The notes beneath the pieces are model-generated. The model was not told the origin of the DNA. It worked only from the letters and a program-made list of their open reading frames with translations, and ran no database searches. The position numbers and the translations under genes are program-made. A stretch of DNA of 64,000 nucleotides, taken from NCBI RefSeq assembly GCF_000003815.2, contig NC_049984.1:21515825-21579824 (forward strand), written 5' to 3'. Positions 5,713-53,135 of the stretch are shown here, in pieces. Numbering within the stretch: position 1 is the stretch's first letter; each line of letters starts with the position of its first letter. Origin of the DNA: Branchiostoma floridae (Eukaryota; Chordata; Leptocardii; Amphioxiformes; Branchiostomatidae).

Positions 5713-6254
5713 CACCAGATAGTTGGTTAATCTGGATAATCACCACTTTTAGGATAATATTGACCGTTAATACTCCACTAATCAAATATAAGCATGTGCT
5801 ACTGAGGGTACACTTTAGTAGCTACTTTATTAATGGACTTAACCTTTACTCACTGCCAAGTATTCTATCGTGCAGAGGTCCGTGGACAGGCCATTCACTA
5901 TGGCTGGGGAAAAACGCAACAGCAGAACAGTTATATTCACACAAGACGGATATTTATGTTCATGAGAAGTGCAGGTGTTCTGCTGTGTTAATAGAAGTTA
6001 TTTTGCAAAATGGAATTTGCTGGTTCCATTGGCAAATACATTAATTGATGTTGACACTGTAACTTATCCAATTGTAAGAGAAGCACTCAGTTCACCGATG
6101 ATGCGTCAACAGGTGTTTGAGATATCTCACACCAGTACGTATCTAGCCATACCTATCTCCCTCTTGAGAAGAAAGTGTGTGCTGATGAATGTGAATCTAT
6201 CTGTGCAGCCTTCTCCAGACGAGTTTTTCAAAGGTGTTGAGTATAATATTCCAA

Positions 6255-8878: not shown

Positions 8879-8974
8879 CCCATTGATTTATATCATGCAC
8901 ATATGTTGTGGTCTTATACCACTTCAGTAGTCTAGTCTTGTATCTATTCACTCTACATACATATGTAACCATGC

Positions 8975-11900
8975 TTGCATTGTTGTATACCTCGACGTCA
9001 CTGGTTCATCCGCTCTCCTCCTATTCAGTGGCGCACATTCGGTTCTTATCTCAGAATGCCAATCCAAAAGGTCGCGCTGAAATTCGGCTCCTGGAATATT
9101 CAGGGCGGCCTGAAGCGTAAGAGCCAAGATGAAGATTTTATTTCTTATTTCGATGATTTTGATTTTGTAGCTATGCAAGAAACCTGGCTCAAGCCAGGGG
9201 ACCACCTTAGATTAGAATCGTTTAGTTACTGTAGTAGTATTAGAAATGTCAAAAAGTCCTCTAGATGTAGAAGAAGTTCTGGCGGAGTACTTCTCATGTT
9301 TCGCAACAAATTTTCAAAAGGTGTAACAAAGCTCCCCACGAGACATCCCGATTTCCTTTGGTGTAAACTAGACAAAATTTTCTTTGGCCTTGAACAGGAT
9401 TTGTTTGTAGGATGTATTTACCTATCTCCGGAAAACTCAACATCTGTAGACACAAGAAATAACACACTATTTGATATTCTGCAAGAAGATATCTGCAAAT
9501 TTTCCAGCCAAGGCAGCATATTAGTGCTAGGAGACTTAAATGCAAGAACGTCATCTCTACAGGAAACATTTATAGATGATGACTGTTTAAATCAAGAATT
9601 TTTAGATACTAAAGACATACGATACAGATCGAACTGTGACAAAGGGACCAACAGATATGGCACTCAACTTGTGGAAACTTGTTCAGCATCCAACCTTGTC
9701 ATTCTAAACGGCCGTACACCCGGAGATTTTAATGGAAAATTGACATGCCACAAATATAACGGGTCAAGTCTAGTAGATTACTGTATTGTCAACTACGATT
9801 TCATGCCAAAAGTTCAATATCTGAAAATAAGTGATATTTCTGTATTCTCTGACCATTGCCTATTAACTTGTTCGATATCCACCAATTATTCACCTTACGT
9901 CCAACAAATGAAACCTTCAACTCACCCGCTGCCCACAAAATACATCTGGGATGATGACTCGAAAGATAAATTCACAGAAGCACTCCAAGCACCACTGGTA
10001 CTAAACGACTTACAAAACTTCTTGGATAAGTCCTTTGATAATGTGGACAATGCTGCCAATGAATTTGCAGCGATAATTAGTCGTGTAGCAGACAAATCTC
10101 TGGAAAAAATCGTCCACAATAATCGTAAGAAAAAGAAAAAGAAAAAGGCTAGCAAACCATGGTTCACCTCCTCATGCGCTTCTCTTAGACGTAAAGTTAA
10201 CCAATTGGCCACTCTCCTATCCAAATACCCATGGAAACTTGACATTCGACATTCTTATTTTTCTAACCTCAAATTATACAAAAAGAAAATTAAGACAGAA
10301 AAAAGGCACTTTAAAGAAAAACAATGGCAAAATCTTAGCAAACTTAGTAAAGTAGATCCCAAAAAATTTTGGCGGGAAATGAAATTACAAAGACAGGAAT
10401 GTAGCAATAGAGAGGAAGTAGATAATGCCATTAGCCCCAAAGATTGGAGAAATCACTTTGAAAACCTCAATAACTTAGCGGGAAGTAGTCAGTCAGATAT
10501 TAAATTCCACCAATACATAGCCCAAGAGAGACCTGATATCTGTCAGACAACGAACAATCAGATCACAACAGAAGAGCACACAGACAGCATAATTAGTAGC
10601 CTTGAAAAGTTAACACCAAACCCATTAGATCTCGAAATTACAGACGGCGAAATACTAGAGAGTTTACGAAATCTTAAAGGCAACAAAGCTTGTGGTTCAG
10701 ACTCAATCATAAATGAAATGTTAAAATATGGAGATACCAAACTCATATTACCCTTGAAAAAACTCTTTAACACTGTTCTTCATTCCGGCAATTTTCCACA
10801 TCAATGGAGTCGAAGCATCTTGGTTCCAATTCATAAAGGCGGTACTTCATCCAACCCGTCTAATTATAGAGGAATAGCCATATCAAGTTGTGTCGGTAAA
10901 TTATTCACATTTATATTAAGCAGACGTTTTCAACGCTTCCTAGAGAATGACAACTTACTATCCCCTTTTCAGTCTGGCTTTCGTAAAAACTTCCGCACCA
11001 GTGACAACATATTTGTACTCAAAACACTAATTGACAAACAGACATCTGAACCCGGGGGTAAATTGTACGCCTGCTTTGTTGACTTCAAGAAAGCGTTTGA
11101 TTCTGTTTGGAGGAATGGGCTATTTTATAAAATCTTATCTTCTGGTATAGGGGGGAATTTCTTTAAAATCATCCAATCCATGTATTCTAACGTAGAATAC
11201 TGCGTCAAAACGCCAAATGGACTCTCAGATTTCTTTCAGTCGACACGTGGTGTGCGCCAAGGATGTAATTTAAGTCCGCTCTTGTTCAACCTTTATATAA
11301 ACGATCTCCCAGCAACTTTAATGTCACCTTTATGTGATCCCGTCGTCCTAAAAGACACCCCCATAAGTAGTCTTTTATGGGCAGACGACCTTGTACTGTT
11401 GTCAAAATCAGAAACAGGCCTCAAAGAATGTCTCAAAAGATTAGATGACTTTTGCTCTCTTTGGAAACTATCAATCAACAGAGATAAGACTAAAATCATG
11501 ATTTTCTCAAAACAAGGCAGGACAAGTAAGCAACAGCAATCAACTTTCCGAACACAAGGGCACACAATAGACATCACTAAATTCTATACTTACTTAGGCA
11601 TAGATATCACCCCATCAGGGTCATTCTCACGGGCTACTAAACAGCTGCGACTAAAAGCTCTCAGGGCTTCCTTTAAACTCAAATCCTTACTAGCATCAAA
11701 CCATAACCCATCAATTTCCCTTGCCCTTGATCTGTTCCATAGTTTAGTCAAACCTATATTACTTTACTGTGCTGAGGTACTAGGGACAAACATCCAATGT
11801 AGAGACTTGATCTTTAACGGAGTACAGGAATATCCTGCTGAAAATATAAGGGAAGGAATTTATAACATCCTTTCTCCGATATTAGGTTCAAATATACAAC

Positions 11901-12847
11901 TCCTAAAGGTTACACGATTAGGAAAGAAGAACGATGTGACATCGCCTCGTCCTATTCTAGTCCGGTTTAAGAGATATAGTGACAAATTAAATATTCTATA
12001 TCAATCGGAATTACTATCGAATCAAAATATTTTATTAACACATCCCAAATTCTCATATGAAGTGTCTGATCTAGAGCATGTTCTTCTCAATTACTGTAAA
12101 ATCCTACTTCAAGTTCCCAGAAGTTCCGTTAATGCCGCCGTAAGGGGTGAACTCGGAACATTTCCATTATACATTGAAGCCCAATCTCAACTTATTAAAT
12201 ATTGGCTTAGACTACAAAACCTTCCAAACGATAGAATAGTTAAAAAAGCTTACGATTTTGCTGTTGAACAAGAACAGGACTGGGCCGTACATGTACAAGA
12301 CATATTGTGCAGACACGGTTTCCAAAATGTTTGGTTAAACCCTGCAGTTGACGCCAAACATTTTGGAAACGTGTTCAAGGAACGTCTGAAAGACACGTTT
12401 GTTTCTGGCTGGAGGCAAGAGATAAGAAATTATAGCAAATTGCAAACCTATTCTAAATTCAAGACCAACTTCACTCTCGAAAAGTACCTTTCATCAATTC
12501 AAAATAAATCATTTGTTGCTAACATAACAAAATTGCGAATAAGTGCACATTGTTTGGAGATAGAAAAAGGTCGATATAATAATATACCAGCCACTCAGAG
12601 ACGCTGTCCTACTTGCAATCATGGTATCGAAGACGAACTACACTTTCTATTATTATGTCCCACATATACTGAGGAAAGGCAGAAGCTTATGGACGTTATC
12701 AACAAGACTACAAACATAACATTACCTAAGACAAGTTCAGAAACTTTCAATTTACTTATGTCATGTCCTGATGCAATTTCCTTGTACATAGGCCAATACA
12801 TCTCTACTGCTTTTCAAAAAAGGAATCGTACTGACACAAACACTTGA
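8975..12847 (+). CDS. LINE ORF2: APE endonuclease + reverse transcriptase
   Basis: A single uninterrupted frame of 1290 aa encodes a non-LTR retrotransposon polyprotein that nicks target DNA and reverse-transcribes the element RNA there. The natural start may be ATG 9057 (MPIQKVALKF), just before the endonuclease. Endonuclease: GSWNIQG, MQETWLK (E69), LVLGDLNAR, VDYCIVN and SDH (D293, H294). Reverse transcriptase: LVPIHKGG, NYRGIAISS, FVDFKKAFDSVW, GVRQGCNLSPLLFNLYINDL and the catalytic WADD (D804, D805). C-terminal zinc knuckle: CPTC (C1211, C1214) then HFLLLCP. The catalytic residues look intact and there is no frameshift, so it may be young. I place it among APE-type Jockey/CR1-like elements but cannot name the clade. 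No ORF1 was found upstream; the 5' end is unclear. Confidence 0.95.
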   Translation: MHCCIPRRHWFIRSPPIQWRTFGSYLRMPIQKVALKFGSWNIQGGLKRKSQDEDFISYFDDFDFVAMQETWLKPGDHLRLESFSYCSSIRNVKKSSRCRRSSGGVLLMFRNKFSKGVTKLPTRHPDFLWCKLDKIFFGLEQDLFVGCIYLSPENSTSVDTRNNTLFDILQEDICKFSSQGSILVLGDLNARTSSLQETFIDDDCLNQEFLDTKDIRYRSNCDKGTNRYGTQLVETCSASNLVILNGRTPGDFNGKLTCHKYNGSSLVDYCIVNYDFMPKVQYLKISDISVFSDHCLLTCSISTNYSPYVQQMKPSTHPLPTKYIWDDDSKDKFTEALQAPLVLNDLQNFLDKSFDNVDNAANEFAAIISRVADKSLEKIVHNNRKKKKKKKASKPWFTSSCASLRRKVNQLATLLSKYPWKLDIRHSYFSNLKLYKKKIKTEKRHFKEKQWQNLSKLSKVDPKKFWREMKLQRQECSNREEVDNAISPKDWRNHFENLNNLAGSSQSDIKFHQYIAQERPDICQTTNNQITTEEHTDSIISSLEKLTPNPLDLEITDGEILESLRNLKGNKACGSDSIINEMLKYGDTKLILPLKKLFNTVLHSGNFPHQWSRSILVPIHKGGTSSNPSNYRGIAISSCVGKLFTFILSRRFQRFLENDNLLSPFQSGFRKNFRTSDNIFVLKTLIDKQTSEPGGKLYACFVDFKKAFDSVWRNGLFYKILSSGIGGNFFKIIQSMYSNVEYCVKTPNGLSDFFQSTRGVRQGCNLSPLLFNLYINDLPATLMSPLCDPVVLKDTPISSLLWADDLVLLSKSETGLKECLKRLDDFCSLWKLSINRDKTKIMIFSKQGRTSKQQQSTFRTQGHTIDITKFYTYLGIDITPSGSFSRATKQLRLKALRASFKLKSLLASNHNPSISLALDLFHSLVKPILLYCAEVLGTNIQCRDLIFNGVQEYPAENIREGIYNILSPILGSNIQLLKVTRLGKKNDVTSPRPILVRFKRYSDKLNILYQSELLSNQNILLTHPKFSYEVSDLEHVLLNYCKILLQVPRSSVNAAVRGELGTFPLYIEAQSQLIKYWLRLQNLPNDRIVKKAYDFAVEQEQDWAVHVQDILCRHGFQNVWLNPAVDAKHFGNVFKERLKDTFVSGWRQEIRNYSKLQTYSKFKTNFTLEKYLSSIQNKSFVANITKLRISAHCLEIEKGRYNNIPATQRRCPTCNHGIEDELHFLLLCPTYTEERQKLMDVINKTTNITLPKTSSETFNLLMSCPDAISLYIGQYISTAFQKRNRTDTNT

Positions 12848-17458: not shown

Positions 17459-17526
17459 TTGGGGGCCAGTGTAAGCGCCAACATTCCTGATTTGAATTTG
17501 TCGCCTTTAGTTTTAGATTAGAATAA
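17459..17526 (+). mobile_element. BEL/Pao polypurine tract and first part of the 3' LTR
   Basis: TTGGGGGCCAG (17459-17469) is followed by TGTAAGCGC at 17470, the start of an LTR. The inverted complement, GCGCTTACA, is found at 32567-32575 at the end of sequence with LTR character. The LTR is therefore inferred to be split by the block 17527-31970. The part kept here is ~57 bp. Confidence 0.65.
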
Positions 17527-17865
17527 AACACCCTCCGGTTTAATTTGGGAATCCCGGTTTAATTTGGGACAACCTCCCGTATTTCAGCAACCTTTAACCC
17601 CAAAGGCTTAATATCGCATATGTTAGGTAACAATGAGGTTAAGAATACGTAGCCGCCATCAATGACCCCCTGGGGATTAGCCCAATTCTGCAGAATTCTG
17701 GAAACTGGAGCCAGAATTCTGCAGAATTCTGGGAACTGGAGCCAGAATTCTGCAGAATTCTGGGAGCCTGAGCCAGAATTCTGGGAAGCCTGAGCCAGAA
17801 TTCTGCAGAATTCTGGGAAGCTAAGACAGAATTCTGCAGAATTCCGAGAACTGAAACCTGGTTCA
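17527..17865 (+). repeat. left inverted terminal repeat with palindrome array
   Basis: The outer ~155 bp are unique sequence (two GGTTTAATTTGGGA motifs, CCTCCCGTATTTCAGC, CATATGTTAGGTAAC); the inner part (17683-17845) is a tandem array of CCAGAATTCTG joined to its own reverse complement, separated by GAGCC/GGAAC spacers. It matches 31627-31970 in inverted orientation. Confidence 0.85.
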
Positions 17866-18926
17866 GGTGATCTCATAGTTTGGTGAAGTCAGGTTCATTG
17901 TTGACATGGTGTATCTTGGGTGGTGGTGAAAGCTTTAGATATAGTCCCTGGGGAACTCTTTCTAATTATTGGCCAGATAGACGTAGAAAATGGCTCACAG
18001 TGAAACGTCAGTAGCTATCTGGAAACTGTCAGTGCTAAGAAGAGGGTCTGCATGCATGGTCCGATTACGCTTTACTCTCAATTCAAGAGGGAAGACAACG
18101 CTTTACGCTAAATTCACAAAGGCTAGAAACGCTGTAGGGTAAATCTTGCTCTTTCCTATGTGTAACGCACACTGGACAAAATGGATTCAAATGTAGTCAA
18201 ATCCGGGGAAAAGGTTTTGCATTTGGTTCGATCGGAAATATCCACATCCTTGCTTCCAGGTATTATTTTGCGGCCTTTTATTCAAAACTTGTAGTTAATG
18301 TAGATGGCAGTGGAATCAATAGCAATGACTGTGCAATTTCAAAATTATTCATGATTTTGTGCTGTGTCCAACTCAGTGCATTGTCCAGCGACATGCTGGG
18401 GCCGGGACCATGGGTAGTTGTTAAAAAGAGTACACGGTTACAATAGGCTACGAAAGGAGGAATAATCTGCTGTGATTTGCGCTGTCCGGTCCATATGACT
18501 TGTGTTGTATAGGTCGGGAAGTTTGTTCACCTTGCAGTCTCGGCTCCTAGTACGTACATACCAGTCCGGTCTAAACTTGCCATTCCGTGACTTAGCAGAG
18601 GCTTGCACAAATCTCCAAGATAATTCGCCTCATCAACTTTGTACAGAATTGATGGCCTCCTAGCTTGGCGTTCTTTGGGTCGGCTGGGTCCCAGGTGGTA
18701 AGCAAAGTCCCGACCAGAACTTGAGAGTTAGAACAGGTCCAAACTTTCTCCATTTCTGCTCTTCCAACAGACGCCAGGAAAATGCTTGCTTCGTCTCGCA
18801 TACCGGTACATTTGAAATCCCCAGGACTGCCTGTCATTGGCTATTCCCTGTCACATGACTCTTATTTGGCCCGAACAGATGCGACACTGTATCAATAAAA
18901 AACACGCAAAGAATACTATGTCGTAT
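17866..18926. other. interior of the 14.4-kb block; nothing recognised
   Basis: No domain motif on either strand. The minus frame at 18592-18837 (81 aa) has no features that I recognise. Confidence 0.4.
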
Positions 18927-19963
18927 AACGGGGGCCGACCTAAGATGCCCCCTGCCCTAAGATGCCCGGATTTTTTGCTGATCTTATTAAAGTACGCCGT
19001 GTTTGTTGCCACTGACTATGATGATTAGAAACATAGATCTCTACAGCTTTTTTTTCTTTTAAAATTTTTTTTACACATGTTCACTTCCTCCTTTTTTTGA
19101 AGACAGAATTTTTACAATAATTTTGGTACTGCCGAATCACTGTGGTCACCTGTTACTAGGTATTGGTGTCTCGTGGCCATAAATAAACAACCAGTAAAAA
19201 CAGCCACACAACTGTCAAACACATAAGAAACAAAGCTTCACAAAACACTACAAATATTGGTCTTCAAATGTTTGTTGAGTAGAAGACCGGCCATAGAAAA
19301 AAACAACATAAACATCATCTCCGTTGTTCCCGCAGGTGGCAGACGAGCGAACGCCCAAAAGATTTGTTACTTTAAAAATGATTCGTACCGTCTATAAGAA
19401 TGAAACTTCACAGAGTGCTGTCGAATATGTTTTCCAATACGTACACAGAGATTTTTTGTGATTTTGGCATTGTCGCTTTTCGTAATGATTTTGTTAGTCG
19501 GGCCGCCGCATTCAGTACATTTCGCCCATTTCCCATGAAAACACGACCTGGATTGTGAAAGATTTAGCCCTTCTCGCGGGAGACAAGAAGCACACACAAT
19601 CACAATTCTACTGTCAAAAGAAAGCTTATATATCATAAAATTCGAATTTTTATTTATATATGTCTAAATTGGTCACCAGCTTCCAAAGAGAGTAAATTCC
19701 AAAAGCGGGGCAAGTTAGGGCGCACTGTTTAACGCGGCTCAAAATCGGAATTTATATTCATGATAACGTCCTCGGTGTTTGCCAGTTGTAACGCGGAGGG
19801 TGAAGAGTTCATGAATAGTATGGATGCCTTTCTTATTCAAGCATGGTAGATGAATGTGTTAAAAATTCAGTTATCAAAACTTGACCACTCTTTGGCAACT
19901 AGTGATGGAGCGCCGTGAGTTCGAGCGCGTAAAAAAAGGGGGCATCTTAGGGCGGCCCCCGTT
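18927..19963. mobile_element. ~1-kb DNA transposon with 27-bp inverted repeats
   Basis: The left end (18927-18953) begins AACGGGGGCCG and contains CTAAGATGCCCCCT; the right end (19937-19963) is its reverse complement with one mismatch. The interior is mostly non-coding. A minus-strand frame at 19367-19636 has a cluster CxxC...CxxC (CASC, CTEC) and could be a zinc-ribbon remnant, but it is not recognised. No clear target-site duplication was found. Confidence 0.6.
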
Positions 19964-19989
19964 GTAACTCTGGCTGTCAACGAACATGA

Positions 19990-20210
19990 AAATGCTCTTT
20001 TTGGGTCAGGAGAGCAAATTAATAGTTTTCGACAAACAAGGTGTATGTCTGATGTCAAGAAACCGTTCCGCATGCAATAAAGTTGGTTCAAAGAAAATCG
20101 GACATCGTTTCGCAAAACCTGTATTTTTTTCAAAAATTGCTCTTTTTGGCTCAGGAGAGCAAATTACCATTTTAGACAAACATTGTGTATGTCTGATGTC
20201 GAGGAACAGT
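19990..20210. repeat. ~148-bp tandem duplication
   Basis: GCTCTTTTTGG...CAGGAGAGCAAATTA at 19993 recurs at 20140; both copies continue with GACAAAC, GTGTATGTCTGATGTC and a GTTC end. Divergence is ~15-20 percent. Confidence 0.75.
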
Positions 20211-20224
20211 TCCTGGACATTTCT

Positions 20225-20430
20225 GTCGTGAAGTGGGCCATCAGATCCATAGAAAATATGGAAAAGAGATTCGTTAGGATCTGCAGATTATCCTTGAAGC
20301 CTTGATTAAATAGCTTTTTGCCGTGAAATGGGCCAGTAGATCCATAGAGATACGGAATAGGGATCTTCTAGTATTTGTGTATTTTTCGAACATACTTTTA
20401 TTGTAGAGTGGGCCCGCTGATGGGTAAAAT
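20225..20430. repeat. degenerate repeat, ~95-bp period
   Basis: GTGAARTGGGCC...AGATCCATAGA occurs at ~20229 and ~20323, with a third partial copy (GAGTGGGCCCGCTGATGG) at ~20405. Confidence 0.55.
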
Positions 20431-20899
20431 GTCTTAATGACGAAAAAAACCCTCAAGACCAGATTGAACATTACAGATTTCCATATTGAAGGATTCGAGC
20501 AAATAACATTTTCGTATTTGTTAACAATCAGGGATCAAACTGTATACGACATTGTATCTCTTTGTATTTTTTATCCTAGCGGATACAGTATCGTATCTGT
20601 TCAGTGTTTTGTCATATCCTATTAGAATCTGGAATTCATTTGTTGTTGGATTCTTCCGTATGGGCATCTGACGAATACCGCGGTATATGCCCACATCCGT
20701 ATCCATCGCTGACAATCCCAGAGGGCAACAACGTCATCATATCCCCTGTTGGTCCCTCTGCATACAAGAATGGGTTTCATACCTCAGATGCTACGACAGC
20801 AAATTTTATATGGTGGGAGCATCAAAGTGTGACAATTCTAGGGGGAATTGGGGGGGGGGGGGCATACTCCTACGGGAAAATGTTGAAATCTTGACCTTC

Positions 20900-21690
20900 T
20901 GAAAAACTATTTCCGGAATTCCCTCATTGTGAGGGACAAATTTTGCTGACAGACTAAGCTAAGTTTAATGAAAAAATACACGGACCGGGACAATTTTTTT
21001 AGGGTAATGACTACAGCATGTCGAGTGCTGAATTCAAAGACCCATAGCATTGCAAGGGAAGTCAGGGGAAAGTTTTAATTCTAACCCCCTAAAATGCAAA
21101 TTTTGCTGCTTAAAGCTTAATGACTTGTCCTAATTAAGCTTAAAGCTTAAGGACATTTCTGTTGGCAGGAAAAGTGAGTCATCATTACAGTCATTCATAC
21201 AGTGTTTAGTTGCCTTGTTGATGTACACTTTCTTACAAACATGTACTACATCATGATCAATACTGATGAAACACTGCATTGTCAATGCTAATACCATTGT
21301 TCTTTCAAGGCACCTCTATAGTGCTTAATACCAGTAGCCTCTAGTTTATCTAAGTAAGTAGGTGTGACAGATTGATTTGTTAGTGAACATACCCATGTGA
21401 CATCACTAAAGCCACTTACTACAGCACACATGCATCATGAGCCAAGCATCCAATGTGACAGAGTGTCTACTAGTAGAAGTACATTCCCAGACCTTGGCAT
21501 GAAATTGCAATTTAAGTGTGTAATCACAGGCCTGGGGTGCCCTGTCTGCTAAGTCTCTCCTTACTTAGAGGATGGTGTGCACTTTTGTACCTCACAAAGC
21601 AATGGAATAAACCTAATAGGCTAGCTGTCTGGAAAAGAACACATACATGTACCTTCCAAGCAAATTGTCAAGGAATTGACATGCAGCTGA
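20900..21690. other. interior of the 14.4-kb block; nothing recognised
   Basis: A G-run lies at 20849-20859. Otherwise there is only AT-rich sequence with short open frames. Confidence 0.4.
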
Positions 21691-21696
21691 GTATTT

Positions 21697-21829
21697 ATCT
21701 CCAAGTAGATCCCATGGTAGCGTAAGATAGTCTTTGTGAGGAGTGTGTTTCCCTACGGGGGCAAATGGACACCTTTTGGATGACTACACTCCTTGGCCAG
21801 TTATGCCATTGTAGGATCTACTTGGAGAT
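21697..21829. mobile_element. MITE-like hairpin element, 133 bp
   Basis: ATCTCCAAGTAGATCC (21697) is the exact reverse complement of the right end GGATCTACTTGGAGAT (ending 21829). The left end continues with CATGGTAGCGTAAGATAG, which is shared with the element at 45737-45870. It is non-coding. Confidence 0.75.
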
Positions 21830-22762
21830 CAGATGAGTAACATCTGTTGGTTGAAGCTCTCTTGCCTGATCCTTCTTGTATCCCCCAGGAGCTCCCTGGT
21901 AGTTTCTGAAACCTGGGGCCACTTGCAGCCATGTACATGACTGTATACATTGTATTGTGCAATGTCCTCAGTGAACACACTCTGTGTCCACCCTTTTGGG
22001 AGAGGAAGAAATTATCAAATGCCTATCTGGACCTCTGCTAAGATGATCAGTAACCACTGGGATGTGCATAGGACTCTTATTAACTTGCAAACCAGCTAAA
22101 ACTTGAATCTCTTTTTCACCACAGTGACTGCAATTTTATTTCTAGACTTGGACTAAGAACAAACTTTATCAATAGTTTTATTTATCTCAGATGCCGTAAA
22201 TCATCCATCTTTAAGTAAAACCTAATGTATTGTGATAAAGATGAAAGAAAAGTTTCATCTAATAACTTTTCAATACTTTTCTTTCAACTTGATAATTTCT
22301 CCTGGGTGAACGGCAGGGTGGTTGAGATACTTTTCCACTGAAAACAGTGAGAGGCTGGGACATCTGACTCTGTCAGTCATTTTGTAGTCTGTACACAAAG
22401 TGCTGGCAGCCCACAAAACCACAGGGGAAACTACCAATCCTTGTCTGTTTCAGGGGTCAGGGGGTCAAATAGTATCCTTCCATAGGTATCATACAGGGAA
22501 CATCACTGTAGAGTCCTATAGATCTGATACAGTTTCTTCAATGTATATGATCCCACTTTTTTTAAATGTTGACTCCTTGAAAACATGTTATTACAAAATT
22601 TCAAAGTGTGATGTACATTTTGTTACGCCCATCCCACTAGTTCCATCACTGTGAACGACTTGGAGTTGGATTGTTTACAGAGGACAGATGCCACATGGCT
22701 GAACTGTGTTTGACACTGTCCGTCCTCCTCTCGTTACACTCCAAGCCATTTGTTACTCTCCA

Positions 22763-22925
22763 GCTCCAAGCAGATGTAAGGATCTAACTTAGTCTAAGTG
22801 CTTTACATTGCCTTTTTAGCTTCCTTTACATGGTGAATTTTTAAAATGTGTGAGACTTTATTTAAGGGTGTTGCAAAGACGATGTCCAAAACACTGAGTG
22901 GGATCCTTACATCTACTTGAAGATG
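22763..22925. mobile_element. MITE-like element related to the one at 21.7 kb
   Basis: The left end CTCCAAGCAGATGTAAGGATC (22765) pairs with the right end GATCCTTACATCTACTTGAAG (ending 22922), with three mismatches. The CTCCAAGYAGAT start is shared with the elements at 21697 and 45737, so the three may form one family. Positions are to within a few bases. Confidence 0.6.
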
Positions 22926-23067
22926 ATAATGCATGGGCAGACTATTACTGTAAGTGTGAGGTTGCCCATGAGGCTAGTTGCAAGAGACGACCTTTTCACA
23001 CCATTTTCTCCCACCTCATGTCAGTCAACTGCCCTCAACAGGATGCAGAAAGATTTAGGGGTACTGA

Positions 23068-23543
23068 GTCCCAACTAGGGCTGGGTACCGGTACGGCGTA
23101 CCAGTACAAAACCGGTTTTTCTCATTGGACCGGTCCAGAAAAAACGGACCTGAAAAAATGTGGTGAACCGGATGTTGGACCGATTGGAAAATGAACTGAT
23201 TATATGATCAGGCATTCACATGTTTTCGGGGTTACCGGTCTAGGCAAATAACAAGAGAGAAGCACTTCTAGAGTACTGACTATATAGTCATTTGTACCAA
23301 CTTTTACAGTCAATCGTACAGGGGTAGTTGAAGCCTTGTAGGATTTTCAAAACGCCAGAGGGAGTCGAATACTACACAAAACAGATTTCCTTGTAGCAAA
23401 ATGGACCGTTGTTTTTAGTATCGCCCATTCACAAGTTTTCACATACTGAATCAGGTTCAGGTCCGGACCTGGACCTGATCCTCTGGACCTGAACCGGCCC
23501 TGGACCTGAATTTTCTGTACCGGTACCCACCCCTAGTCCCAAC
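23068..23543. mobile_element. non-autonomous hAT-type element, 460 bp, with 8-bp target duplication
   Basis: Terminal repeats TAGGGCTGGGTACCGGTAC (from 23076) and GTACCGGTACCCACCCCTA (ending 23535) are flanked by identical GTCCCAAC on both sides (23068-23075, 23536-23543). An 8-bp duplication and TAGGG-type ends are hallmarks of hAT elements. The subterminal regions are rich in ACCGG/CCGGT and GGACCTG motifs. No transposase is inside. The perfect duplication suggests a fairly recent insertion. Confidence 0.85.
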
Positions 23544-23780
23544 TGTCATATTGCCACAGAAACTAATTTAGTTTCAATGCTATGCAGTATATCTTTGACA
23601 CATATAAGAGCTTGCAAATTATTGAGACACGATGTGTTGAAACAACAGTCAACTTGCACTGGGGCCGGGGGAGTGAAAACTGACTATGGGATATGGCTGT
23701 GCTGGATAGCCCATTATTTAATAAAGCAAGAATCATTGTCTAAATTTTGTACCTGGAATAGGAAATATTTCCCGAATACA

Positions 23781-23890
23781 TAAAACGGGGGTCACGTGTT
23801 CGAGGAGGTGTCTCCAGCACGTTAAACAGTCTCAATGCTAAAAAAAATTTGGGTACCTACTGGCTGCTGGTAATACACCTATTATTATTA
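23781..23890 (+). repeat. possible SINE/LINE tail
   Basis: AAAACGGGGGTCACGTGTTC, GAGGAGGTGTCTCCAGCACG and TTAA are followed by an ATT-repeat. This resembles the conserved 3' region of several marine-animal SINEs, from memory. No A/B box is visible just upstream. Confidence 0.35.
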
Positions 23891-23899
23891 TACCTTAGT

Positions 23900-25050
23900 C
23901 TACTACATGTATATGCATATTGTACTAAAGAATAGTAAACCAATTGATTTTTTTCAAAAAATTTTGTTTGTTAACAGCGTAAGAATGTGACCACTTTCCC
24001 TGCTCTGGAACTATGTAATTTGAGCATTTCTTCTCAGGAATGCATTTCTTAAGTTGAAATTTCATGGTGGCTGGCCAAGGCTTCACCCTCAGCTGACCCC
24101 AGTATCCCTATGGGTCAGCCTGGACTCAACCTTCTGTTTTTTTTTGGAGGACCTGAGTGATGGTGGGAGGAAAATCTGTTGTGAAAGAGAAAATGGGTGA
24201 TTTGGGGCATCACAGACCAGACAGACTGATTTCAGTCTATAGTATATATTAAACATATTTGATAGTATTCCTTCAAAAGTGGGATAACTTCCATAAGGTT
24301 ATCTCGTCGACCAAGAGATGCTTGAAACTGAGTTCAGATTCAACCAACCTGACAGATCTACATTGTACCAAATACCAAACAGCCAAACAACCAGACAGAT
24401 CTGTGTATAATCATAACTGTTATGCCCTAATATTATAAAATCTAAAGTAAACTACTAATGTCTCAGGGTTGTGGACAAGCACTGTGTTCTGTGACTGCAT
24501 CAAACTTTTACAAAGACCCTAACACACAAGTGCTCCAAACCTAAAGAATCTAAGGCGGTAATAATATAGAAGCTCATCTAACATTATATCAGAAGGAAGT
24601 AGTCCAGGTGATTCACCTGTAGCTGCATGTTAAACCTGTCTTCTGTTGTCAACTTAGGACAACAAAGACCTGCGGGACAGTTTGAGGGTGCTAACTAGTT
24701 CCATTAGGACACTTAGTACGTAAATGTCCCTAAGTATAACTGTCCTTTAGGGTCAAGGCTAACATGTTTAGGACATGACACAGAGTCTGCCGTCCTTTGC
24801 AGAGAGGGCATTTGGATTTCCCCCATTGAATTAGTTTGTCATATGTTGGGAGCCTTCCGCGAATTCAAAAACACCCAGGAGGTGTTGTGCAAAGAACTTA
24901 AACTTTAGATAGATGTTGACAAGTTTAGCCAGTTTCCCTGTACTTGGAGAGATCTGCATTTTTCTATTTTCATGAGGACACTTCTATGTTGAACTTCATG
25001 ATTATGTAACAGTGAGGTTCAAGTGCCATCAACTGACCAGCCTAACTGGT
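23900..25050. other. interior of the 14.4-kb block; nothing recognised
   Basis: No domain motif or structured repeat could be supported here. Confidence 0.4.
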
Positions 25051-25062
25051 CCGGACCTTTTG

Positions 25063-25125
25063 ACCTAGCAGTTATGGTGTTGCATTCGTTAGCTGGGAGC
25101 CAGGAGACTACTTGCCTTGTGTTTC
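25063..25125 (+). repeat. possible tRNA-derived SINE remnant
   Basis: GACCTAGCAGTTATGGTGTT followed by GCATTCGTTAGCTGGGAGCC resembles a tRNA 5' half (A-box-like part). No B-box (GGTTCGAATCC-like) follows at the right distance, so this is at best a decayed SINE. Confidence 0.25.
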
Positions 25126-25989
25126 AATTATTCCATATTTTTCTCTTCCCCTCCAAAAAGTTTTGATGATCATAAAGCTACCTGTGCGCAAAAGAATCAA
25201 AACCTGTGGAAGATGAAATACATGTTATTTTTTAACAGCCTCTCTAGCGACCAGTAAAGAAATATATTTGAAGAGGCCTGCAAAACCCACAAAAATTTCC
25301 AAACATTTACTGCTGATACAAAACTATAACCCTGTTAATGTGACATAACCCATTCATTATAGAAAACGTGGGACAATTCATCTTCCACTGCTTCCAGAAT
25401 AGAAGTCAAACCCAAAGTGACACAGCTGGTAGGCACATTTGTAGACATTTGTAGGGTAGCCTGACTCCCTAGGTCTCCCGGGAGGAGCTTCAAGTGAGCT
25501 TGTGTTATGCCCAGCTAGTTGGGATGTTTGCAGAAATGAAAGTGTTTATCAAGAAATAAACACAAATGCTGATGACTATTTTGGATACTCTTTTTGTTGT
25601 CTTTTATACAATGTATTATACTTTCATTCCCCAAAACTGTCCGACCAGCCCAGTTTGGTAATGTGACTGAGTGACCAAACACAAGGGCAGGGATCTGGAA
25701 ATTGTTGGCCAGACATCATGTTAGCCTTTGCCAAATTTGCTGGGAACACTGGTGTGACTAATGAAGATTTTCTAGAAGTATGGGCCCAGGTTCCCTGTAT
25801 GAGCCATCCCAAGAAGATTCTAATTATGAAGCCTGGGGCCTGAGGTTTATCATGTGGGCGGGACTGTAACGAAACTGAGTGCTCAATTCAGTAGCGTATG
25901 TTTACCTAGGATTAGCCACGGGTGTGCCAAGGGAACAGAGACAATTCCCTGGTAGCCCAAACAACTTAGTACTGGGTAGGTGGATCATA

Positions 25990-26080
25990 TTCAAGACATG
26001 CAAAGCTGACAATGTCAAAATCACTTGCCCCACTTCAAGACATGCAAAGCTGACAGTGTCAAAATCACTTGCCCCAGGCT
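25990..26080. repeat. 45-bp tandem duplication
   Basis: TTCAAGACATGCAAAGCTGA...TCAAAATCACTTGCCCCA occurs at 25991 and 26036 with a single A/G difference inside. Confidence 0.9.
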
Positions 26081-26119
26081 TTCTGGCTTACAATTACATG
26101 TATGATGTTTCATAATTGA

Positions 26120-27780
26120 TGAAGGAAGGGAACAATATTATTATAGTAAAGAAACCAGACTATTTACCTACACTTACTACCAAAGCAATTATAGTTAACT
26201 CCAAACCTAAGTACATGTAGGCCCTCACAAAGGCTAAATCTGAACTTCTGAATACAAAGCATCAGTTTAGCATCAGTCAAACCTGAAATGTCAAAACAAC
26301 CACTTCCCCATCACTTACCCTAGACACCTACTTTTCCCATTTGAGTGCTTATATCACCAACAACACTAAAATACTACAGATTAAAAGCAACCATCATATG
26401 TTTTATTATATTAAGTATTATTCAATGAACATAGCACACCCTTCTGATTTCCCAATGGTGTTAGTTAACATTGAATTTTTCAGAAAATCGAGTTAATCTG
26501 CCTGTGACATCACTGAGTAACACATCATACAGTAATTCTTGAATTGTTAAATCAAGGGTAACTTAATTCTAGACCTACCAAACCTAGGTTAGCCGGCACG
26601 CCATGACCTGAATCGAACAGTTTTCGAATTTCAAACAGGTTTTCTATGCAGTTCGAATCACTCTGCGGTCTTTACTAGCAACACCTTCAAAATCTGTGAT
26701 AAGTCTTATAGTTTAAACTTTCAGAAACCAGAAGGTTTGCTCCTTCTAACGAAGGAGAGTTTTTGTTGGTTTGAAATCTACAACAGGTTGAATACAACAG
26801 CTGGGGAATTTACGCGAAAGTCACCTGATTTTGATTGTATTTATGACAGGAAATTAAACGATATACATGTACGATCGGTTCAAAAATCTATATGAGCTAA
26901 GAATGAGGCTGAAATACTGTGAATGACTTTGAATTGAAGAAGATACGCATGCAGTTGTATACTCCAGCGACAAGCTTTCTTGTGTGGGATGTTGACACCC
27001 GGAGTCATGGAACGGACTACTTTCTCTCGCGGAAGGAAAAGAAAACTGCATAGAACTCTCGGCATGGCATGGCAACTGAGTTCCCCTTTCCATTGAAACA
27101 TGGCATATCATAAATCTCTTTTAAGTTTTCTGGTTCAATTTCACCGTTTTTGAATCAATAAAATTTTGGCAGACATCTAAACAAGAAATCTTTTTAAAAA
27201 AGCTGTGCCTTGCCGCGTATTTTATGTTATTTTGGTAAGTTAGACTAGATTCTACGCTTAAAAATCCCGAGTTCCACATGTCGCCCCCCCCCTCATTATC
27301 ATAATTTATGTCAGATGAATTATTGGCACATTAAACAGGTTTTGTAAAACTTTTTGACCCACAATGAATATGCATTATTTTTTATTACAAACTAAGTTCC
27401 TTCTGATGCAATTTGTGATATATATTTATATAAACATGGTGAGTTAAAGCGTAGATTTATTACGCTGGACCACATACAGTAACATGCGTCTAGAAGAGCG
27501 TTTTAATACTCGCCTGGAATGTACCATTGTCTAACTAAGCCATGAATCTCGGCAAGGAAAGAAGGGCCTTTGGAAGGGGCTTTGGAAGGGCTGGGTTAAA
27601 AGGTCCGTCCATTGATCCATGGAAAAAAGCTGGCGTAAAGCCTTGCCTGGCGGCAAGGCAAAAAACAGAAAAAGCAAGAAAACCCCTAACATCTATTGGC
27701 ATAACACCGCCACTAATACTTTATTATCATATAGCCAGATGGAGATGACCAATCAGAGGCCCCCATTTCCTATGGGTTAT
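26120..27780. other. interior of the 14.4-kb block; nothing recognised
   Basis: Two short overlapping minus frames at 26854-27111 show no domain. A purine-rich stretch lies at 27550-27600. Confidence 0.4.
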
Positions 27781-27794
27781 CAGGCAGTAACCTG

Positions 27795-27830
27795 AAAAGT
27801 GGTCGGTTATTAGAATAACCGACCACTTTT
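27795..27830. repeat. perfect 17-bp inverted repeat, 2-nt loop
   Basis: AAAAGTGGTCGGTTATT, loop AG, then the exact reverse complement. It is too long and exact to be chance in AT-rich DNA and could be a minimal palindromic element or a replication-slippage product. Confidence 0.85.
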
Positions 27831-28303
27831 TGGACCGCACCATTATAGAGGGGACAGGACGCTAATTCTAGTCTTAAGTATTTATCGATTATATCTATTA
27901 AACAGCGTACTGTACTTTATTTCGAACAATTTATGTTAAAATACAACACAATTAAAAAGATATCAATGATTTTTAAATAGAAAAAGATTGAACATGACTT
28001 TCAACACCCCCACTAAACAAACCCGATGGTCAAATTTGACTTCTATTCGGGGTATTAGAACACGAATCTTGTTCGATCTGACGTGATCGAACAGAACGGG
28101 CGTTCTACCGGCGGGGGTCACCCGCGGTCATCCGCAGGTTGCTACAGTAAACACGCAGAAAACGCCCTGTGTCAGTTGGATAGGCTATATGTGTCAGTTG
28201 AATAGGCTACATGATAATAACGTTAATGCCCCGCCTTTTCCTCGGTGTTTATGGTGAGATAATCCCTGGTCAGGTGCGATAAGCACCTCATAAACCACCT
28301 CGT

Positions 28304-28403
28304 NNNNNNNNNNNNNNNNNNNNNNNNNNNNNNNNNNNNNNNNNNNNNNNNNNNNNNNNNNNNNNNNNNNNNNNNNNNNNNNNNNNNNNNNNNNNNNNNN
28401 NNN
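28304..28403. other. assembly gap (100 N)
   Basis: Exactly 100 N, the conventional placeholder for a gap of unknown size. Any frame reported across it is an artefact. It lies inside the 14.4-kb block, so the true block length is unknown. Confidence 0.99.
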
Positions 28404-28649
28404 TTACTTTCTGTATGCTCATGCAGGTTTTTGTTTTCTGCAATTACTAACAGGAAAGGAGGGAACAACAGAGGATGAATAAAGGTTCTCTTCTTCGCAA
28501 GCTCCGAAGAAAACTCACTTCCTGTCTATGTACACAACAACACGGGAATGGTAGTTGCCACCGTCAGCACACGGCTGGCATTTATTGCCCTCTCTGATAA
28601 AACAACATAACGAATAACAGTCTTACATAGTGGAAGGGACTGAATTTGT

Positions 28650-29000
28650 CCATAACGAGTAAGTGTCTCAGTGTACAAAAAGTTGGAACGGGAACTAAGG
28701 TTCAATATCGTACATTAAGATAGGGTACAACAACAAGCATTAGGCTACAACAACCACGCGAAGCAGTAACACATTGTAGAAGGAACAGAAGGTTGGGTTC
28801 AGAATATCGTGTAGTAACAAGGTACAACAATGAAGGTAGGCTACAAACAACGTAATGCGAAGCAGTTTGCCACGAAGGAGGTACAGAAGGTGTCTATACG
28901 AGTAAGGTCTTAGTGTACAAGGTAAAAAACTTGAACGGAACTAAGGTTCAGAAGATCTTGGAGTCATGAGTTACATGTACGTCAACGGTAAGCGGTAGGG
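28650..29000. repeat. imperfect ~245-bp tandem repeat
   Basis: ACGAGTAAG-GTCTYAGTGTACAA, AACTAAGGTTCA and GGTACAACAA-type blocks occur at ~28655 and again at ~28900, with GCGAAGCAGT between them twice. The stretch is rich in ACAACAA and non-coding. Confidence 0.5.
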
Positions 29001-29827
29001 TGCAAGTACAAGTTAAGCAGGTGAACTACAAGATAACATACCCGCGCGGTAACCTGTAAACGTACTGGGACTAGCTCGACGGAACTAGGTACAGGGTAAG
29101 AGAGGAATAATGCCAGGGGCTAACGCGAACTACAACAACAATGTAACTAACGTAGGTAAGGCAACTGATAATCAAGAATTAACAGCCGATAACGATGGGA
29201 GGGTGGGTGGTAAATTTGCAGCCCGTACGCTAGGAGACGGAGCTGCGAACGAGCTGGGATGGTGATGGGGAATGGGAGGAGAGAGCGAGGGGATGGGATC
29301 AATTAGTGAGGGGGGTAGGGGGTAGCTCACGTGTACTCCGACAGGAAGTGGGACTACATAGCGGCAGTTAATTGTGCCGTCTTTCTTCCTGACGGAATTA
29401 TTGAACCCCCTCCCAACCACGCCCCCGTTCTCCGTGTAATTCCGCGGTGTGTTACGATTACGATATTACGTTTTTAGCACTACAAGAGAGACAAAAAAAA
29501 AGATACCGAAAACAAGTGGCAAAGGTAAGCTTTACCAGCAACATGTAACTGGAGAAAACGAAGTGTTGATCATTTGTCAAATTAGTATCGCTTGCAAACT
29601 CGCAGTAAACTTGGCGGTATTATGATAATAGATGTTATATGCCAAACCAATTTTTTTCATGAATGAAACAGATGGTTTTAGACAACCAAAAAATGACTGT
29701 TGAGTTGAATGAGTTGTCTGCTGAAATGGTTAAAAAGTCAACAATTTGATGACTGCTATATATGGGGTTCAGAATCTAATCTTTGATGAGTCTTCTCAGA
29801 GCTAGTTTTTATGATAGAGCTGATCTG

Positions 29828-29863
29828 CTGGCTCAAAAATAATTTTGATTGTTTTTGAGCCAG
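29828..29863. repeat. 12-bp stem, 12-nt loop inverted repeat
   Basis: CTGGCTCAAAAA and TTTTTGAGCCAG flank TAATTTTGATTG. No further context. Confidence 0.7.
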
Positions 29864-29869
29864 TGGTTG

Positions 29870-31620
29870 TACATGTGGTATAATCAGTAGCAAATTAAAG
29901 CATTTTGTTGTAAATTGTGTCTGGTGTATCTAATAGACTGATTCCTCTGTACGTGTTATTAGTTGTACATGTATAGCCAAGGTTTCCTGAACCAAGATGT
30001 CAGCTTTATCAAGAGGGAATTAAATATTCTTTCACTATTAAACTTCAAGGAGTGGGTCACTCAAAGCATCTGTCTTGAAGACTTAACAATATAATTGAAA
30101 GGTGCTAGTGTAGGGACGGTGGAAAACAAGTCCACAAATTGTGATATTTTGTTAGATGTTGTTAGTAGCTGTTTTGTTAAGTAATTTGGACCCAACTGTT
30201 TAGCACTGAAGCCCAAAAGTGATTAACATGAAGTCGAGCAGACAGTATGTAAAACAACCTTGTTCACAGTAAGACGTTCACTTTGACGACTAAGACAACA
30301 AAAGGTGTGACACCTTTATGCTATTGTTTGAAGCCTTTGGAGGCAGCTATTTAGCACTTATGTTGTATCAAGTTGAAAGGCCCTGTCATGCTGTGTATCT
30401 GTCTATTGTCTGTGTCTGTGATTCTGAATAAAAGAAGCCAGGAGTTGTTGTGTTAGGAACAGTCGGACAGAGGCTTGAGCCAGAGAAGGAGAACAGAGAG
30501 AGAGGGTCCCGACCAACAGCTCCCGTGCGTGTCTAACGGCATGACTGTGTCCTGTGTGTGCTTTCTTAGTCCTGTAGTTTAAACGTTCCTCGTGCAGCAT
30601 TCAAAGAACCTGGGGCCACAACACCGGCCCCGCTTACACTAGCGCTTGTCGAAACATCGATTTCCGGACAATTCAATGTTCCCAGTTGAATGTTCCTTGC
30701 GACTGACCGTCAGGCCGGGTTTACATTTTCTGTGGAAACGTCATTTTTGGTAAAAATCGTCATTAAAAACAATTTCATTAAATGCTAATTTAGGGCAATT
30801 TCTGTCAAGGCCGATGCACAGAAAAGAGGACTTTTCCTACTAGTAAGATAATGACCTACACGGCAATAAAGGTCATCAATTTGTCTGTGTAATATAGAAA
30901 ATTGAAAAAAAAATCGTTAGGATACATTTTCTGAAATCATCGATGGCAGGAAACCACCCCAAACCCGTATAGATCATATGATTTGGGTAATCAGGAGTCA
31001 AGGCCGATACATATTACATGTCTATTGCCAGCTTTCTTGATTATTCATAGTTATTCAATGATTGACATTTCAAATGCCTTTTTTTTTAGACATTTCTCCT
31101 TCAAATATATCACCACAGTACTGGGATAAACATACATGTGTAACTGGTCTTCACTGTGAACTACTTTATGTTCAGCATGATGCAAATGTTCTTAAAACAA
31201 AACAAAGCCAATATAACACTTGCTTTATGTAGCTTGATATCCAGATAGAAAAGCATCTGGCAGTAGGACAAAAGCAGCACAATATCCATATCAAAGTCAT
31301 GTCCATATCAAAGATTCTTAAAAACAGTACTTAAGTTCGATTACAGAAGCACTGGTGCACTGTGAGGCTCAATGGACGAATTTAAGCATTATGCTACACT
31401 TGCCCTGTTATCATTCTTAACTTGGGGCCCAACCTTTGGACACTTCTTTGTTAGCCCAAGACCTATATACCACTCCGATGATTTGGTGTCCGTAGCATCT
31501 TCAGATCGAAAGATACATAAAACTTCCTTAATTATACAAATTAGGGATCACTTAACACAATTGCTGTCTAATTATATTCATCTTCACTTAAACAACCTCT
31601 GGCTCTGCTTTAAATTATGG
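29870..31620. other. interior of the 14.4-kb block; nothing recognised
   Basis: AT-rich, with AATAAA at ~30427 followed by a purine-rich stretch. No coding domain was identified. Confidence 0.4.
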
Positions 31621-31626
31621 ATTAGG

Positions 31627-31970
31627 TTCCTGGAATCCTGCAGAATTCTGGCTTAGCTTCCCAGAATTCTGCAGAATTCTGGCTCAGGCTTCCCAGAATT
31701 CTGCAGAATTCTGGCTCAGGCTCCCAGAATTCTGCAGAATTCTGGCTCCAGTTCCCAGAATTCTGCAGAATTCTGGCTCCAGTTCCCAGAATTCTGCAGA
31801 ATTCTGCAGAATTGGGCTAATCTCCAGGGGGTCATCAATGGCTGCTACGTATTCTTAACCTCATTGTTACCTAACATATGCGATATTAAGCCTTTGGGGT
31901 TAAAGGTTGCTGAAATACGGGAGGTTGTCCCAAATTAAACCGGGATTCCCAAATTAAACCGGAGGGTGTT
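31627..31970 (-). repeat. right inverted terminal repeat with palindrome array
   Basis: Reverse complement of the left repeat. The palindrome array spans ~31631-31814 with six or so units; the last unit has an extra CAGAATTCTG step. The outer half (31815-31970) differs from the left copy at only a few positions. Confidence 0.85.
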
Positions 31971-32575
31971 ATAAGTTTCCCGCCACTAGTACCCCACGGG
32001 AGACTCTAGCAAGGCCAGCCCGGGGGCGGCTGGAATTTGGGACAGAAGGAAGCCAGTCGAGAAAGGAAACCAGCCGGAAAGGGACCTGTGCTGAAGGAGG
32101 CACAGATCAGAGGCCTGGAAAGGGAACGTCCAGGAGACTTAGGACACATAGGCCTGGAGTGAAGACTTCAGGAACTGGAAAGGAAGATTCCAGGAACAGG
32201 AGGACAAAGCTCCAAGACATATGGACAGACTCGGTCGGGTACGTGGGTGACCAAACTATGTTTTACGGCAAAGAACTCATTGCGGATTCGGCTAAGAATT
32301 CACTGCAGATTCGGTCAAGAACTTACTGTGGACTCTGATTCAAGAGGATTTACAACTACAGATGGAATAGGGACAGAAATAGGACTTTCAAACTCAGTAC
32401 GGTGGCTTCTGTACTTTTACTAACTCTATGTACAATATAACTTCAAAACGTTCAGGTTTGTGTCTGCGTCTTACATCTGTGTGAAGAATCCAAGGTGAGT
32501 TCGGTTATTACTTCTTTGTAAACCTAGTATCCCGGCTGAGGCTCCGACGACAAGATCTAGAGTGGAGCGCTTACA
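31971..32575 (+). mobile_element. second part of the BEL/Pao LTR
   Basis: The segment ends GAGCGCTTACA at 32575; its last nine bases are the reverse complement of the LTR start at 17470, the usual TG...CA symmetry. It contains short direct repeats (GATTCGG...AAGAA at ~32285-32320) and no reading frame. Together with 17470-17526 it would form one ~660-bp LTR. The sequence just 3' (from 32576) would then be the original flank. Confidence 0.6.
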
Positions 32576-43904: not shown

Positions 43905-44363
43905 TGGGCCGTTCCAAAAAATAAATGTGGAGGGGGGGTTGAAGAGGTTAGATTTTCCAATTGCTTCACCCCTCCTTTGGATTTCATCCGAGTGCCTGAC
44001 CCCCCCATTGAATTTCATCCGAGTGCCTCGACCCCCCTCTAATTTCATCCGAGAGCTCCAACCCCCCCTTTCTTTCATCCGAGGTCCAAATGCCTCTTAT
44101 ACCCCTTTTCTTTCATCTGAATAACCTTACCCCCTCATAATTTTCATCCTAGAACCTTGCCCTTACAGTACTGTAACTGAGATAGGAGTAAAAGTATCCA
44201 AATCCAGATTTTCTTGACTTTTTGGTAGAAAAACCCATATCCAGACTTATCTTGACCCCCCCGTTCAAACGAAATCCAAATCCAAGATTTCCTTGACCCC
44301 CCCCCCTCAGTAAAATCCGACCTCTTCAACCCACCCCCCACATTTATTTTTTGGAACGGCCCA
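43905..44363. mobile_element. 459-bp inverted-repeat element with internal C-rich tandem repeats
   Basis: The left end TGGGCCGTTCCAAAAAATAA and its reverse complement on the right (ending 44363) continue with ATGTGG, a G-run and TTGAAGAGGT, giving ~40-bp inverted ends. Between 43970 and 44110 a ~30-bp unit (TTTCATCCGAGTGCC plus a C-run) is tandemly repeated, and the right half has CAAATCCA-type repeats. No coding capacity. No convincing target duplication. Confidence 0.75.
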
Positions 44364-51472: not shown

Positions 51473-51504
51473 GTAGACAGGACTTTATAAGTAGACAGGA
51501 ATTA

Positions 51505-52980: not shown

Positions 52981-53135
52981 GATACAAACACCTATTGATT
53001 TATTCACCTGATACGGACACTTATCATGTGAGCCTTCCATTTGTGAGGCATACAGATAAAAGAATTGTCATTTTACAAAAAGCTGAACCAAGAAATTGGC
53101 AATGTCTGGATGTGAATGAGTTGCTATCTTGATTT
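52980..53135 (+). pseudogene. PIN-like region, C-terminal end in a shifted frame
   Basis: The frame starting at 52980 reads RYKHLLIYSPDTDTYHVSLP and then ends WQCLDVNELLS before TGA-containing sequence. S-P-D-T-D-x-Y is the acidic motif expected downstream of the region at 52690-52990 and supports the reading of one interrupted protein. Confidence 0.6.

Follow-up and report, generated by a model that had tools for sequence, protein, structure and literature searches.

What kind of element can split the long terminal repeat (LTR) of a BEL/Pao retrotransposon with more than 14 kb of DNA that carries long inverted ends and no recognisable gene? The question is raised by a stretch of 64,000 nucleotides from Branchiostoma floridae (contig NC_049984.1, positions 21,515,825 to 21,579,824; this whole stretch is called the window below), in which an earlier note had described a ~14.4-kb block with ~340-bp inverted ends and ATAA outside both of them, and had read it as one large inverted-repeat element inserted once into one LTR. 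According to the analysis presented here, the block very probably belongs to a family of giant non-autonomous DNA transposons with terminal inverted repeats (TIRs), moved in trans. The genome searches were made in the window's own genome (G000; 513,431,437 bases, 431 contigs), where the window is C6:21515825-21579824.

The interrupted LTR and the borders of the element

The LTR starts with TGTAAGCGC at 17470, preceded by a G-rich tract, and its end, GCGCTTACA, finishes at 32575. Just upstream of the LTR start, the segment 16926-17255 matches DUF5641 (E 1.7e-31), a domain that we take to be typical of BEL/Pao integrases. The left piece of the interrupted LTR (17470-17526, plus strand, 57 bp) has ATAA at its end and matches the LTR start of six copies elsewhere (L032, L033, L034, L036, L037, and L042); the rest of the LTR lies at 31975-32575, also on the plus strand. 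As a genome query, this right piece produced 46 matches, twelve of which were retrieved as loci, one being the window itself. Seven LTR copies (L032-L037 and L042) were compared at the junction, L038-L041 matching only later parts of the LTR.

In six of the seven LTR copies examined, the left piece directly adjoins the right piece with a single ATAA, i.e., the site is seen without the element, as is characteristic of TIR (class II) DNA transposons; in the seventh copy, L035, the left piece is absent and the junction is not covered. The window LTR is without roughly 20-40 bp beside the junction that other LTR copies have, which is taken, on comparison of the copies, as a difference between them. 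The joined LTR, whose search in the genome the earlier note had proposed, is thus found with both flanks contiguous in the six copies spanning the junction, and these empty sites with one ATAA bear out the reading of a single insertion. The insertion into the BEL/Pao LTR is real and well supported.

The inserted unit occupies 17527-31970. Its extent agrees with the earlier description, and the length has to be restated, since about 100 N near 28.3 kb make 14,444 bp an assembly length. The segments 17524-17700 and 31797-31973 are 97% complementary over 177 nt, with more blocks out to 17858 and 31613, respectively, so that each of the inverted arms is ~340 bp long. The junctions read ATAA/AACACCC...GGGTGTT/ATAA at 17523-17533 and 31964-31974; more fully, ATAA is followed by AACACCCTCC on the left, and GGAGGGTGTT is followed by ATAA on the right. 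The two copies of the target duplication, both given on the plus strand, are at 17523-17526 and 31971-31974. Arm alignment and terminal letters together confirm the block with its inverted ends and flanking ATAA, and these ends are not a product of chance, since ten fetched giant copies proved to have ends of this kind.

From the border inward, the left arm consists of a terminal core (17527-17683, plus strand), formed by the AACACCCTCCGG terminus, two GGTTTAATTTGGGA modules, and a stretch conserved in the three giant families A, B, and C described below and in three short relatives, and of an array of paired 10-bp palindromes with a mostly 31-32-bp period (17684-17870, plus strand; nine copies of CAGAATTCTG). 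The right arm has the corresponding array (31626-31806, minus strand; eleven CAGAATTCTG) and a terminal core (31814-31970, minus strand) that is the reverse complement of the left one, with 166 of the first 170 positions identical. The interior between the arms (17871-31625, strand not assigned) contains no recognisable gene.

Giant families, their ends, and their short relatives

A 174-bp end query yielded at least 40 scored matches genome-wide, many of which pair as inverted ends 9.7-18 kb apart, while one giant pair, on C14, spans 40 kb, of which ~17 kb are N; counts of giants and ends from the genome searches are lower bounds. At least 15 giant pairs were listed by place, and they belong to three related families. 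Family A (94-100% to the end query) has pairs on C6 (the window), C8, C3, C13, C10, and C14, and one end seen on C148, C5, and C340; family B (74-78% to the end query) has pairs on C16, C2, C4, C323, C165, C158, and C13; and family C has pairs on C17 and C7. The search for further inverted pairs of the terminal repeat, suggested in the earlier note, thus reveals, with that of the window, at least 15 giant pairs; the whole unit recurs as a family that has 4-bp duplications of its own.

Exact 4-bp duplications are present in nine of the ten giants read at both ends (ATAA on C6, TAAG on C8, GTCT on C3, CTTT on C13, TACA on C14, AAAT on C16, TATA on C2, TAAA on C17, and AGAA on C165); the tenth, on C10, has degraded ends, with TGCA versus TGTA. 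If giants and short copies are taken together, the duplications are 4 bp of free sequence and exact in 13 of the 14 copies read, and the element ends are mostly AACA(C/G)CCTCC(G/A). Within giants, the arms share 159-167 of their first 170 positions in eight of the nine copies compared; the ninth, C14, scored 43/170 in a comparison shifted by two bases, and its arms correspond when the letters are read directly. Both the terminal inverted repeats and the fixed duplication length at independent sites are features of TIR (class II) DNA transposons.

Several giants are nearly identical: C8 and C13 agree at 99.1% over 5.5 kb, C13 and C340 at 99.5% over 4.2 kb, and C3 and C10 at 98.9% over 2.2 kb. 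Base 1 of contig C340 (L028) is exactly the outermost base of a family A end; either the assembly may have broken off at the repeat, or the copy may be unintegrated.

The core segments of the window interior are collinear with those of the other fetched family A copies (C14, C148, C5, and C340 being fetched or assembled in part only), with substitution identity per 500-bp bin of 79-100%, mostly 86-97%, and many indels. An exception in the order is the segment at block positions 1400-2437: because it is matched in C14 alone, at another place and inverted (L020), it is probably a separate repeat, to judge from these alignments. Families A and B have in common only the ends and small interior pieces. 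For a 1-kb interior piece (21168-22186), long matches are confined to the giants and one older copy (C10:937636) among the 40 of 1212 candidates scored, and its inner ~90-135 bp are a high-copy repeat. The stretches of the interior found only in the window are at least partly nested repeats; e.g., 27184-29660, unaligned with any other fetched copy, contains nested high-copy repeats (27300-27665 and 27722-28300) and the gap of ~100 N. The first of these repeats, of ~365 bp, has at least 27 further copies at 98-100% identity and is a young, high-copy element. A tandem array of ~145-bp units has many copies in C8, C13, and C148 (L009:1621-4052, L014, L026) and is short in the window (19989-20213).

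The ends of the giants also occur on much shorter units. When up to three mismatches are allowed, a 22-base end pattern is found at 98 sites in the genome versus one for a reversed control, and a second, degenerate end pattern has 102 sites versus 0 for its control; many of the sites are inverted pairs 0.2-2 kb apart. All four short copies read have exact 4-bp duplications (AACT, TTTT, AGTA, and AGTA), and identity to the family C end, over up to 194 bp, is 92-96% for most short elements and as low as 82% for some. The terminal sequence is thus common to giants and miniatures. The earlier note had reserved the case that the terminal repeat might occur mainly as a short solitary element; this is partly so, as many short elements carry the terminal sequence, but each of the four that were read has two ends enclosed by one duplication and is a miniature rather than a lone arm.

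The terminal core of ~160 bp is common to families A, B, and C and to three short copies, and a D-type short copy has mainly the outer ~30 bp in common with them. Behind the core lie perfect 10-bp palindromes, mostly in head-to-tail pairs with a 31-32-bp period and, in family C, also single, every 21-22 bp. The palindrome is CAGAATTCTG in family A and TTATGCATAA in families B and C and in C-type short copies. Twelve giant arms tested have 14-23 palindromes each versus a mean of 0.3-0.6 (maximum 5) after shuffling of the letters; two short copies were left out of the count because their runs of N inflate it. All 20 CAGAATTCTG of the window sit in the two arms of the element, and the two CAGAATTCTG of the single D-type copy read are within chance. 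Families A and B/C have different palindromes in a similar layout, and the arrays may be protein binding sites.

Search for a gene in the interior

No transposase was found by Pfam among 131 of the 132 open reading frames (ORFs) of at least 45 aa in the window copy, where one marginal zinc-ribbon match was seen (E 0.0068), and the statement of the earlier note that no known transposase is visible inside stands. The same holds for 148 of the 190 ORFs of at least 62 aa in eight loci with other A, B, and C copies, which gave two marginal matches of no bearing (DUF5337, E 0.00077, and YIEGIA, E 0.0018).

The 52 ORFs of at least 75 aa from the C8 and C3 interiors, scanned jointly with 26 ORFs located close to 12 other TIR sites (13 Pfam families matched in all), gave one transposase match, HTH_48 of Mos1-type transposases (E 1.4e-9). 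This 113-aa fragment, placed by sequence, by eye, at L011:1293-1631 inside C3, is also present in C10, is absent from the other fetched loci, and belongs to a high-copy genome repeat (150 of 1246 candidates scored); because of the latter, it is taken, on its sequence, as a nested mariner-type fragment and not as a gene of the element. The mariner-type stretch is found at L011:1200-1720 and L015:1177-1697, and 41 bp near its start recur inverted at L011:1743-1783. The other Pfam matches were mostly traced to flanks of short sites or to host-gene-like pieces (BLTP1, ELP1, CCDC93, RVT_1), and the origin of a PipB2_N match (E 0.0036) was not traced.

The longest N-free ORF in the giant loci checked has 156 aa, with the exception of the C340 tail (L043), whose seven ORFs gave several weak Pfam matches, all under the Pfam cut-offs. 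When eight copies are aligned with that of the window, the indels number 1068, of which 279 (26%) have a length divisible by three, and a 3-base periodicity of mismatches is significant at 5% in 8 of 471 overlapping windows. Coding conservation between the families was rejected, as the cross-family matches lie on both strands and many have stops inside. N gaps and the C340 tail aside, the fetched copies show neither a transposase of their own, as an autonomous DNA transposon would, nor a codon signal. Since neutral evolution after insertion would give the same indel and periodicity picture, more weight lies with the copies that are nearly identical and yet lack ORFs. Rfam gave 0 matches, a tRNA search of the window with the bacterial setting gave 0, and comparison of the TIR with a phage collection, uninformative for an animal genome, gave no match.

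Outside the element, the window contains three open frames (228, 371, and 525 aa) at 48823-52998 on the plus strand, the middle of which matches DUF6589 (E 4.3e-7), and the 525-aa frame (51421-52995) has 41 matches in the genome, several of them inside open frames of up to 2762 aa; this is another mobile-element family, not assigned to a class and possibly intact. A 1292-aa frame with endonuclease and reverse transcriptase domains at 8969-12847 (plus strand) is that of a long non-LTR retrotransposon. About twelve 30-bp repeats at 5345-5716 lie in a 244-aa frame and encode EATPGPSSVV-like units, and ~460 bp at 43905-44363 have 52-bp inverted ends (92%) with C-rich tandem repeats within.

Known transposon groups and competing explanations

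The three families can be compared with several known groups. Mariner/Tc1 elements duplicate TA; here, the duplications are 4 bp of free sequence, and HTH_48 is present only as the high-copy fragment in C3 and C10. Polinton/Maverick elements make 6-bp duplications and encode, e.g., polymerase B and integrase; the duplications here are 4 bp, and no domain of polymerase B or integrase was found in the ORFs scanned. Foldback/Galileo elements have long inverted ends, internal tandem repeats, and much non-coding variation, with Galileo belonging to the P-superfamily and making ~7-bp duplications. The giants resemble them in the long inverted ends with internal repeats and differ in the 4-bp duplications and the paired 10-bp palindromes. 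Like Pack-MULEs, plant Mutator-like elements with captured DNA, they have a transposase-free interior between inverted ends and would be moved in trans; unlike in Pack-MULEs, no gene fragments were recognised, and the duplications are 4 bp, compared with 8-10 bp in Mutator. The Pack-MULEs of the first report are given as not above 7 kb (PMC6431247).

Among groups with 4-bp duplications, the earlier note had named Ginger and Chapaev, besides Sola, as candidates, and neither of the first two suits the termini. Ginger1 and Ginger2 share the 4-bp duplications, with TIRs of 40-270 bp, and are reported from B. floridae (PMC2836005); in that description, Ginger ends are TGTNR, Ginger1 duplicates CCGG/CCGT, and Ginger2 targets RTATAY, while the ends observed here are AACA(C/G)CC and the duplications are ATAA, TAAG, GTCT, CTTT, and others, and hence both Ginger1 and Ginger2 were set aside. 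Chapaev (CMC) agrees in its 3-4-bp duplications, and families A and C have CAC/GTG two bases in from their ends; however, CAC/GTG is described as terminal and invariable in Chapaev (PMC4079192), whereas here the constant AA/TT belongs to the element, and family B has CAG. Kolobok has a TTAA-specific duplication (PMC9587614), in contrast to the free 4-bp sequences here; its terminus rule, 5'-RR/YY-3', does hold for AA...TT, as a two-base rule that is weak alone and from which the damaged C10 ends deviate. KolobokP has 5'-RR...YY-3' ends, 3-5-bp duplications of solo repeats, and a reported presence in Branchiostoma, and differs in that its long terminal repeats are direct, its TIRs have only 11-18 bp, and its oyster non-autonomous forms are 1.7-3.3 kb (PMC9587614). 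None of Ginger, Chapaev, Kolobok, and KolobokP fits in full.

With non-autonomous TIR DNA transposons that have miniature inverted-repeat derivatives (MITEs), the similarity is general: inverted ends, a fixed-length duplication, no transposase, and many short relatives with the same ends. Within this class, the families stand apart by their length of 9.7-18 kb, near-identical full-length copies without genes, and long arms with paired-palindrome arrays. The assignment made here is limited to non-autonomous TIR DNA transposons, with the superfamily left open. Repbase gives general names to unclassified non-autonomous TIR elements (PMC4455052). No description of the element family was found in literature searched by title and abstract; names in Repbase may exist, and short relatives may be named in a 2006 paper on B. 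floridae MITEs.

For a giant non-autonomous unit moved in trans, a transposase, for which we infer the DDE type, would bind the long ends, whose palindrome arrays could be recognised by it or by a partner protein, would excise or copy the element, and would insert it where the target has been cut with a 4-bp stagger, in the window copy within the BEL/Pao LTR; repair of the stagger would then yield the 4-bp duplication. The short elements would be internal-deletion derivatives using the same machinery. The earlier note had offered both a giant non-autonomous element and an autonomous one of an undescribed type, and the former is the better supported, there being no gene of its own and near-identical copies without ORFs. 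That the giants are autonomous, their interior encoding a transposase in many short exons or of a kind absent from libraries, is improbable: the interior is long and common to many copies, an undescribed enzyme would escape Pfam, short pieces of the interior are in some cases alike among A, B, and C, and the long frames of the C340 tail are not settled as to membership in the element, but the cross-family matches fall on both strands, many with stops, indels do not come in threes, 3-base periodicity is absent, and copies ~99% identical have no ORFs above 156 aa (N runs set aside). A composite origin, in which two short elements inserted in opposite orientation now move the host DNA between them as one, would account for the closeness of family C ends to many short elements (most 92-96%, some down to 82%); it was rejected, and seems hardly credible, given the single outer terminus of each arm, the one duplication around the whole giant, the two-ended structure of the short elements read, and the long matches of the interior piece in giants only.

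A different matter is descent from a described group with 4-bp duplications (Sola, Academ, a Kolobok relative, or Chapaev), which is compatible with a giant non-autonomous unit moved in trans and to which we give even chances. A described autonomous family usually stands behind a non-autonomous one, the termini AA...TT conform to the Kolobok 5'-RR...YY-3' rule, and AACAC...GTGTT contains CAC/GTG two bases inside. KolobokP, with its 3-5-bp duplications, is reported from Branchiostoma (PMC9587614), but Kolobok proper is described there as TTAA-specific and the long repeats of KolobokP as direct, while the duplications here are of free sequence; likewise, the invariable CAC/GTG of Chapaev termini (PMC4079192) contrasts with constant ends AACAC, or AACAG in family B. 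Moreover, the other transposon-like ORF of the window (51421-52995) has none of its 41 matches between TIR pairs among those listed, as judged by eye, the nearest being 17 kb outside the C165 pair.

Several observations weigh against the reading as giant non-autonomous elements moved in trans. DNA transposition is reported to drop significantly above 6 kb of cargo (PMC6431247). No source of transposase was found, and mobilisation in trans is therefore reached by elimination. Coding sequence could be hidden in N gaps (~17 kb in C14, 2.1 kb in C340, 0.9 kb in C13, and ~0.1 kb in the window), the Pfam scans of ORFs leave out copies C13, C10, C14, and C5 and the family B copy C165, and the C340 tail has frames of up to 303 aa beyond the part aligning with other copies. 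A mariner-type helix-turn-helix fragment does lie inside C3 and C10. Finally, none of the other copies comes close to identity with the window copy (mostly 86-97% per bin), and recent movement is shown for other copies only.

Most non-autonomous DNA transposons are short. The size of the cargo is described as a limit on DNA transposition (PMC6431247). Here, full-length units of ~10-18 kb that lack genes of their own have multiplied, some copies still being 98-99.5% identical, and miniatures share their ends, so that the size limit of transposition becomes testable within one family. The surprise is the size of the gene-less units multiplied at full length, together with the palindrome arrays, rather than the existence of a TIR element. 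Tentatively, and while considering it unlikely, we suggest that the three giant families and their miniatures could form an undescribed superfamily, whose enzyme or a partner protein would recognise, in both ends, paired 10-bp palindromes arrayed at a spacing of about three helical turns, with the palindrome switched (CAGAATTCTG in A and perhaps D, TTATGCATAA in B and C), the layout and terminal core kept, and the long ends moving 10-18 kb of gene-less DNA in trans without the usual size penalty. The arrays, alike in layout and unlike in letters, point to a protein that may have changed its DNA specificity while keeping its arrangement on the ends.

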